Virus record (IMG/VR): IMGVR_UViG_3300046804_001093
Span: 1-30,737 of that record
Direction: 5' to 3' (one strand)
Source: a virus
Length of the DNA: 30,737 bases
This document shows, piece by piece, positions 2,477 to 4,125 of this stretch (position 1 is the stretch's first letter; every line of letters begins with the position of its first letter). Both the position numbers and the translations under genes were made by a program. The notes below the pieces were generated by a model. The model had not been told where the DNA came from. It saw nothing but the letters and a program-made list of their open reading frames with translations, and searched no databases.

Positions 2477-2779
2477 ATGAGACCAGGAACTAGAGTTATA
2501 TGTGTAGATGATTCTATGAATCCTGATGTTGCTGCGTGGCAACCTAGATACTGCCCTAACTGGGTTAAGTTAGATCAGAAGTATACTATCCGTGAGTTTG
2601 ATAATAATGACGGTATAGTTGATGGAGTTCTCCTAGAAGAAATTGTTAATCCTATACTCTATTTACCTAAATGGGGTAGAGTTATAGAACCTAGATTTGC
2701 CGCATGGAGATTCCGGGAACTTGAAGATGATCAAGTTGAAGAAACAGTTATTAGTAAAGAAGAAGTTGCAGTATTGTAA
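2477..2779 (+). CDS. Hypothetical protein, possible small beta-barrel
   Basis: Unrecognised 100-residue protein. It starts with a strand-rich segment (TRVICVDDS, residues 5-13), then YTIREFDNNDGIVDGVLLEE, which looks like strands of an SH3-like barrel, and ends in an acidic, probably helical tail. The ATG follows the preceding stop by one base. Promoter P2 lies across its 3' end. Function unknown. Confidence 0.65.
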   Translation: MRPGTRVICVDDSMNPDVAAWQPRYCPNWVKLDQKYTIREFDNNDGIVDGVLLEEIVNPILYLPKWGRVIEPRFAAWRFRELEDDQVEETVISKEEVAVL

Positions 2780-2795
2780 TTTCTTACTATATTTG
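2766..2795 (+). promoter_or_regulatory. Bacteroidota-type promoter P2
   Basis: TTG at 2766-2768, exactly 19 bases, then TATATTTG at 2788-2795. It is identical in both elements and spacing to P1 and P3. The expected start of transcription near 2801 is about 14 bases before the ATG at 2815, so it decides the start of the GroES-like gene and would also transcribe the structured RNA and radical SAM gene behind it. Confidence 0.8.
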
Positions 2796-2814
2796 TTACA
2801 AATAAAACCAACTA

Positions 2815-3092
2815 TGTTCAAAGAATTACGCGGAAAACGCATCTTGGTTGAGAGACCAGAAAGACCAAAATCTCTTATTGAATTAACTCCTGAAGCTGAA
2901 CAAGAAGCAGCTATTGAGTTTGTAAAGACGCTAAATAAGTTACCTGTTGCTGCAGTAGGAACTGATGTTACCAACATTAAAGTTGGAGACTTGGTTTATA
3001 CCGGTATGGGTATTACCAACTGTGAAGTGCTTGAGATAGATAACAAACTCTATTTCGTAGTACCTGAGCAGATGGTTATTATTGTTTGGTAA
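2815..3092 (+). CDS. GroES-like co-chaperonin (gp31-type candidate)
   Basis: Probable lid protein for the host GroEL chamber, the role played by GroES and by T4 gp31 during capsid folding. The 92 residues follow the GroES plan: a start strand LRGKRILVERPE, a mobile-loop-like stretch (about 17-40, including SLIEL), VAAVGTDVTNIKVGDLVYTG, which matches the GroES V.AVG...VKVGD.V segment, and a closing strand pair ending VPEQMVIIVW like GroES ...ILAVI. Promoter P2 fixes the start at 2815; the longer frame from 2697 would begin inside the previous gene. Overall identity to cellular GroES is low, so a structure prediction is needed to exclude another small beta-barrel. Confidence 0.6.
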
Positions 3093-3097
3093 AATCC

Positions 3098-3202
3098 GTA
3101 GTACAGATAGTCGAGTAGGTAGCTTCTACTCACCCCAGTTGAGGAATACTCTCCGTAAGGACGTCTATCCGGAGTGACGTATAGCACTGGGTTCTGTACT
3201 AC
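3098..3202 (+). ncRNA. Candidate structured RNA in the leader of the radical SAM gene
   Basis: The 139-base gap between the GroES-like and radical SAM genes holds a GC-richer block closed by a perfect 10-bp stem (GTAGTACAGA 3098-3107 with TCTGTACTAC 3193-3202). Inside are a 6-bp hairpin (GAGTAG 3113-3118 / CTACTC 3126-3131), a 6-bp stem (CCCAGT 3134-3139 / ACTGGG 3186-3191) and a 5-bp hairpin (CTCCG 3151-3155 / CGGAG 3170-3174). ACGTC (3161-3165) in that hairpin's loop can pair with GACGT (3176-3180) just outside it, forming a pseudoknot. No coding frame fits. A riboswitch, ribozyme or phage RNA is possible; no known family was recognised. Confidence 0.65.
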
Positions 3203-3231
3203 TACTTTACAGATTAGTAAATAATTATCTT

Positions 3232-4125
3232 ATGAATGGTTTAGTAAAAGAAGTTACCAGACGGCAACTTAAGATTACTGAATCTGGGAGGAGCACTGAC
3301 TTCATTGCTCCTAGTTTTGGTCATGGGTGTCTATTCAACTGCAGTTATTGCTACATGAAGAGACATAGACCTACCGGATTACAGATTGCAAAAAATGTAG
3401 ATGATGTATTAGATGCTGTAGGTAAGCATTATGAATGGTTAAATACAACTACGTGGTGGGCTGAGAATAAACCTAATCAAACACATGATTCTAGAGTTAC
3501 TTATGATATAGGTACTAATGAGGATCTTGCTTTACATGCTAAGTATTATGACTTACAGAAGATATTTGATTACCCAAAAGGTAAGGCTATGCTGTTCTCA
3601 TTTGCTACTAAGTATGTAAACTATGACTTAAAACATTTAAACGTACATCTTAGTAGAACACGTATTAGATTTAGTTTGATGCCTCAGAAGTATGCTGATA
3701 TACTAGAACCTAATACTAGTCCTATAGAAGAAAGGATATCTGCTATCAATGATTTTATAAAGTATGGTTATGATGTACACATTAACTTTAGTCCTATTAT
3801 AGTTACTGATACTTGGATAGAGGATTACCGGGATTTGTTTATGCTTGTAGATAAGATTGTATACCCCTTGTATAAAAGAGAGCGTTCTATAAAATCAGAA
3901 GTTATCTTTCTCACACATAATGAGAAGAAGCATAATTATAATCTTGCTAACGGGATACCCGGGGAAGATCTACTATGGAGACCTGACATACAAGAGAACA
4001 AGATCTCTAGTAATGGTCAGTTAAATATAAGGTATAACCATAAACTAAAAGCTGATTACATATATCAGTTTAAGTGCTTACATGAGTTGCTAATACCTTG
4101 GAACACAATACGTTATATATTTTAA
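3232..4125 (+). CDS. Radical SAM protein, spore-photoproduct-lyase-like
   Basis: Radical S-adenosylmethionine enzyme of 297 residues. The cluster motif is C33-x3-C37-x2-C40 within GCLFNCSYCYMKR, which would hold a 4Fe-4S cluster. The flanking phrasing (APSFGHGC..NCSYCY) resembles SplB-type photoproduct lyases, which directly reverse UV damage, but substrate is not provable from sequence. Downstream, alternating strands and helices are consistent with a partial TIM barrel. The gene sits 30 bases behind the candidate structured RNA and likely belongs to the P2 transcript. Alternatives are a base-modifying or RNA-modifying radical SAM enzyme. Confidence 0.75.
   Translation: MNGLVKEVTRRQLKITESGRSTDFIAPSFGHGCLFNCSYCYMKRHRPTGLQIAKNVDDVLDAVGKHYEWLNTTTWWAENKPNQTHDSRVTYDIGTNEDLALHAKYYDLQKIFDYPKGKAMLFSFATKYVNYDLKHLNVHLSRTRIRFSLMPQKYADILEPNTSPIEERISAINDFIKYGYDVHINFSPIIVTDTWIEDYRDLFMLVDKIVYPLYKRERSIKSEVIFLTHNEKKHNYNLANGIPGEDLLWRPDIQENKISSNGQLNIRYNHKLKADYIYQFKCLHELLIPWNTIRYIF

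Follow-up and report, generated by a model that had tools for sequence, protein, structure and literature searches.

Introduction

Self-complementary loops form symmetric kissing dimers in the retroviral dimerisation initiation site (DIS) and in the OLE and GOLLD RNAs (PMC7357161, PMC12286853), and the switching of such a loop from one palindrome to another is a published sign of symmetric kissing, as described for L9.3 of OLE and L21a of GOLLD (PMC12286853). Few natural RNAs work as homodimers (PMC7357161, PMC12286853). Here, we describe a structured RNA of ~105 nt located at positions 3098-3202 (+ strand) of a 30,737-nt stretch of viral DNA (IMG/VR record IMGVR_UViG_3300046804_001093; hereafter, the window), and we compare it and its homologues with these and other known systems.

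Like the retroviral DIS, the element has a 6-nt palindrome in an apical loop, flanking purines and a predicted symmetric loop-loop helix (reviewed in PMC7357161), and its apical loop has the DIS-like property of staying self-complementary through sequence changes (10 of 10 members, four palindromes). However, the DIS is part of the genomic RNA of animal viruses, whereas the element is a stand-alone, small, three-way-junction RNA of a DNA phage. OLE RNA resembles it in having a symmetric kissing loop that switches between palindromes (PMC12286853), but OLE is ~600 nt in length, bacterial chromosomal and protein-bound, and we found no homology between the two. ROOL and GOLLD are non-coding RNAs of phages and prophages that often lie near tRNA islands, as some members of the present set adjoin tRNA genes, and GOLLD also has a symmetric kissing loop at which palindromes covary (PMC12286853). 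Unlike the 105-nt element, ROOL and GOLLD exceed 600 nt and have many intermolecular loops, compared to one covariation-supported loop here, predicted from sequence; no sequence match to them was found, and the ROOL and GOLLD family models in Rfam gave no match. The phi29 prohead (packaging) RNA is likewise small, phage-encoded and built around a three-way junction, and its copies pair by their loops, as predicted for the element, but it makes rings through two different, complementary, non-palindromic loops (PMC7357161), and the element had no Rfam match to it. Finally, theta (HDV-like) ribozymes are small structured RNAs beside phage tRNAs, a position shared by some members, but their helix order is different and their cleavage site adjoins the tRNA, whereas the element lies 5' of the tRNA and has no HDV fold.

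Structure and conservation of the RNA

The non-coding gap that holds the element (3093-3231) follows a GroES-like co-chaperonin gene (2814-3092, + strand; phrog_3188, co-chaperonin GroES, E 1.9e-4), with 5 nt between the end of this gene and the RNA. Downstream of the gap, but not linked to the RNA, is a spore-photoproduct-lyase-like radical SAM gene (3232-4125, + strand; Pfam SPL, 3.6e-19). An initial annotation of this DNA had pointed to a perfect 10-bp closing stem within a gap richer in G+C than its surroundings. Both features were borne out, the stem joining 3098-3107 to 3193-3202 and G+C being 49% in 3100-3199 vs. ~33-39% in most adjacent 100-nt intervals. The minimum free energy (MFE) of the gap was -37.8 kcal/mol compared to a shuffle mean of -28.7 kcal/mol (z -2.46), and 5 of 200 shuffles did equally well.

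Ten distinct homologue sequences were obtained, with a three-way junction common to all; they represent a narrow set of related, uncultured phages in fragmentary metagenome records. Relatives of the radical SAM protein occur at 72 viral loci, only three of which carry the element by blastn (L001 and L002/L003, the latter two having the same sequence), and in L002/L003 it is ~3 kb from the radical SAM gene. By comparison, relatives of the GroES-like protein occur at nine loci, and the element is directly 3' of the stop codon in all nine. A DNA pattern scan added L088/L089, from a phage whose DNA polymerase gene is different, and L167 was first detected with a covariance model of nine sequences that did not include it (89.5 bits, E 9.5e-21; E-values of this model are rough). 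Whole-record searches of 100 viral records gave no additional member, and blastn against phage and plasmid records gave no real match to the element. The pattern scan of genome contigs produced nine chance matches, none of which the covariance model passed, and relaxed viral pattern scans produced dozens more that the model removed.

In a MAFFT alignment of the nine sequences, made without fitting to the structure, 270 of 270 cells in 30 helix pairs were paired and 10 pairs had changed on both sides. Covariation was present in all four helices, and the score of the structure in this alignment was reached by none of 500 shuffles, and slid controls gave at most 51% paired cells and at most two pairs changed on both sides. 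When L167 was added, in an alignment fitted to the structure, 99.7% of cells were still paired. Wobble pairs read on the + strand were G-U in eight cases vs. A-C in one, indicating that selection acts on + strand RNA. The comparative alignment and the match to L167 confirm that 3098-3202 is a real structured RNA.

Rfam gave no match at the gathering score for the whole window and nothing consistent at relaxed thresholds (E up to 10 for the window; up to 5 for L002 and L076), weak scores for xanthine, snoRNA and RAGATH-20 being confined to single members or the wrong strand. Models of described SAM/SAH aptamers did not match within the same E limits, nor did the Rfam ribozyme families. On the strength of these comparisons, the element and its homologues, with their clear covariation, make up a new RNA family that Rfam does not contain. 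The initial annotation had proposed a compact, structured, possibly phage-specific RNA of no known family, and had staked this on covariation among homologues and on the lack of a match to a described family. Since covariation is present and no described family was found, the proposal survives the test that it had set itself, and the RNA is phage-specific within the scope searched.

The closing stem, P1, is formed by 3098-3107 and 3193-3202, and 4 of its 10 pairs had changed on both sides among the 10 members. P2 (3110-3133) is a hairpin of 2 + 7 bp (G3110-C3133, U3111-A3132, and 3113-3119 with 3125-3131) with a 1-nt bulge at C3112 and an invariant loop, UAGCU, at 3120-3124; 4 of 9 pairs had changed on both sides, and pair 3111/3132 occurs as UA, CG or AU. 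P3 joins CCCAGU (3134-3139) to ACUGGG (3186-3191), with 2 of 6 pairs changed on both sides, a count that includes the CACAGU/ACUGUG version of L167. P4 joins CUCCG (3151-3155) to CGGAG (3170-3174), with 4 of 5 pairs so changed, and its lower extension, AUAC (3146-3149) with GUAU (3179-3182), is more weakly supported (92.5% of cells paired). The three internal helices first proposed are real as P2, P3 and P4, but these comparative helices differ in part from the single-sequence MFE fold.

The apical-loop palindrome

The apical loop contains the hexamer GACGUC (3160-3165; alignment columns 65-70), a predicted symmetric kissing loop. This hexamer is palindromic in 10 of 10 members, as GACGUC (three), UGUACA (five), UGCGCA (one) or GGCGCC (one), and it is the only hexamer column to be palindromic throughout. 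When the versions are ordered as GACGUC, GGCGCC, UGCGCA and UGUACA, neighbours differ by exactly one symmetric pair. Scored as self-pairs, the loop had 100% of cells paired and 3 of 3 pairs changed on both sides, and neither the paired cells nor the covariation score was matched in 500 shuffles. Adjacent loop columns also covary (CG in five, UA in five), and since adjacent bases cannot pair within a molecule, only intermolecular pairing explains this covariation. The idea of a conserved palindrome was recorded before the covariance model detected L167, which carries the fourth version, and the chance of a palindrome in this one new case is ~1 in 56. The chance of three derived palindromes is ~6e-6 at loop composition, an optimistic figure because the hexamer position was picked after inspection. 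Recombination may have exchanged the GACGUC and UGUACA types, so that independent changes may number as few as three. Taken as covariation of a self-pairing loop, these data suggest that two copies of the RNA probably dock by their apical loops in a symmetric 6-bp kissing interaction. The loop of P2 also contains a palindrome, AGCU, and could be a second contact, allowing larger assemblies; since UAGCU never varies, it yields no covariation evidence.

Within a single molecule, the initial annotation had suggested a pseudoknot between ACGTC (3161-3165) and GACGT (3176-3180). Both strands are present in the window, but their pairing is not conserved, with 58% of cells paired among members, equal to the shuffle mean; as a general feature the pseudoknot was tried in two registers, both at shuffle level, and rejected. 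A monomer whose loop pairs with the strand 3' of P4, the palindromes being incidental, would be served by the complementary ACGUC and GACGU of the window and by the L002 type, and the predicted pairing energies are -6.9 kcal/mol for the window type and -9.7 kcal/mol for the L002 type. In L002 (2975-3082), the strand 3' of P4 is also UGCGCA, identical to the loop palindrome; this strand has changed together with the loop, making an intramolecular pseudoknot possible in the L002 type. However, members with UGUACA and GGCGCC retain GACGUA 3' of P4 and pair poorly (-3.6 and -2.5 kcal/mol at best), and a purely monomeric explanation appears decidedly improbable. The window and L002 types may nonetheless form a pseudoknot, and competition between dimer and pseudoknot states is possible there.

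Genomic neighbourhood and alternative explanations

The element holds a nearly constant position behind a protein gene, P1 beginning 3-6 nt behind the stop codon in 10 of 11 tabulated members, and it follows all GroES-like homologues of 85-96% identity. Such an arrangement would suit a cis-acting 3' UTR element that caps and protects, or else processes, the mRNA of the upstream gene at its 3' end and has no function in trans. However, the upstream place is filled by two unrelated genes across members, and in the exceptional L089 a terminator-like hairpin and 51 nt intervene between stop codon and element. Furthermore, GroES-like homologues of 45-49% identity are never followed by it, and there the next gene often overlaps the stop. 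Given two upstream genes and these homologues without the element, the GroES-like gene is unlikely to depend on it as an obligatory cis element, and since mRNA protection needs no conserved, sequence-switching palindrome, we consider a 3' UTR role to be unlikely on balance. Read-through of the stop codon was considered and rejected: the window has another stop at most four codons further on, and members differ in their upstream gene. A + strand scan of 2700-3400 for an intrinsic terminator found none, and no T run follows P1.

Whereas the upstream stop is constant, the downstream side changes. The initial annotation had favoured a ligand-sensing leader of the SAM enzyme, and a riboswitch or leader for the downstream gene, e.g., a SAM or SAH sensor for the radical SAM gene, would be in keeping with a compact junction RNA and with the spacing from the element to the start of the radical SAM gene in three members (28 nt in the window, 51 nt in L001 and 11 nt in L076). 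In other members, however, the element precedes unrelated ORFs, a tRNA (L167) or tRNA-like genes (L089), and the next ORF begins anywhere from 11 to 663 nt away. The element is absent from most radical SAM loci and from most phages that have radical SAM homologues; no SAM or SAH family of Rfam matched it, and P1 is not followed by a U-rich terminator on the + strand. The constant upstream stop and changing downstream side therefore exclude a leader dedicated to the radical SAM gene. By these comparisons, the element is independent of the downstream gene, and we give hardly any credence to a riboswitch. A self-cleaving ribozyme that trims a flanking tRNA or mRNA, like the theta ribozymes beside phage tRNAs, would fit the tRNA that starts 5 nt behind the element in L167, and phages are known to carry ribozymes paired with tRNAs (PMC10879173). 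Against this, no ribozyme family of Rfam was matched, the helix order differs from the HDV-like nested double pseudoknot and no cleavage site is indicated; a ribozyme is therefore very improbable.

Proposed function of the RNA

Considering the conserved fold and palindrome, we favour as probable a small, trans-acting, non-coding phage RNA that would form a homodimer by a symmetric 6-bp kissing loop and would not be a switch for the gene downstream. The RNA would be read from the + strand behind a protein gene, probably within that gene's transcript, and then processed; in L167, maturation of the tRNA by RNase P would set the 3' end of the RNA. It folds into the closing stem P1, the short UAGCU-loop hairpin P2 and the long P3-P4 arm, and two molecules would join through the apical palindrome of this arm to give the homodimer. 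The dimer could act in trans as a scaffold, sponge or decoy; several relatives have tRNA genes in the same region. The sequences show the conserved fold, the strand polarity, the conserved palindrome and the independence from the downstream gene, and we infer transcription, processing, dimerisation in the cell, action in trans and the biological role.

An extension of this idea, which we think quite unlikely, is that the RNA is a minimal counterpart of the ROOL/GOLLD cages, in which closed homo-oligomers would be built by way of the P2 AGCU and the P4 hexamer, with the hexamer as an identity tag that would keep the assemblies of co-infecting related phages unmixed. At ~105 nt, the RNA would offer a small, easily made system in which to ask whether RNA-only phage assemblies exist and whether kissing-loop types serve as self/non-self marks.

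Other features of the loci

A search with two terminase models, bearing on a packaging-RNA role and on phage placement, gave no match, an outcome that carries no information because these records are fragments. The contig of L002 contains very large genes (L259-L260; 3597, 2339 and 1925 aa); Pfam gave no match for the 3597- and 2339-aa proteins, and the latter had no tblastn match in phage records. The DxDGD motif of crAss-like RNA polymerases was absent from the giant late ORFs of this contig, and we accordingly claim no phage class. The radical SAM protein (3232-4125) is widespread in uncultured phages (72 loci) and had no tblastn match in annotated phage records.

Several loci have tRNAs or tRNA-like sequences in the vicinity. 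A tRNA-Arg lies ~2.6 kb downstream in L002, and the window has no tRNA. In L089 (9433-9717) and L170 (97-359), tRNA-like genes carry long additional segments close to the anticodon or variable arm; these genes share the variable region with the element, and ARAGORN reports them (L089 9571-9716, L170 97-208) only if introns of ~69 and ~39 nt are allowed. A non-coding stretch behind the element in L083 (1775-1905) ends in what resembles a decayed tRNA 3' half (GTCAAGTTGAGTCCTGTCCTGACGGCA). In L078 (5395-5535; similarly in L077, L081 and L082), a second non-coding, structured-looking stretch (CCACGCTCGCGAGTGG...) directly behind the element is possibly another RNA. Finally, an 11-mer behind the element in the window, ACAGATTAGTA (3209-3219), resembles the 5' end of the element (ACAGATAGT), and it occurs twice, 23 nt apart, in L001 and L089, with one of the L089 copies changed.
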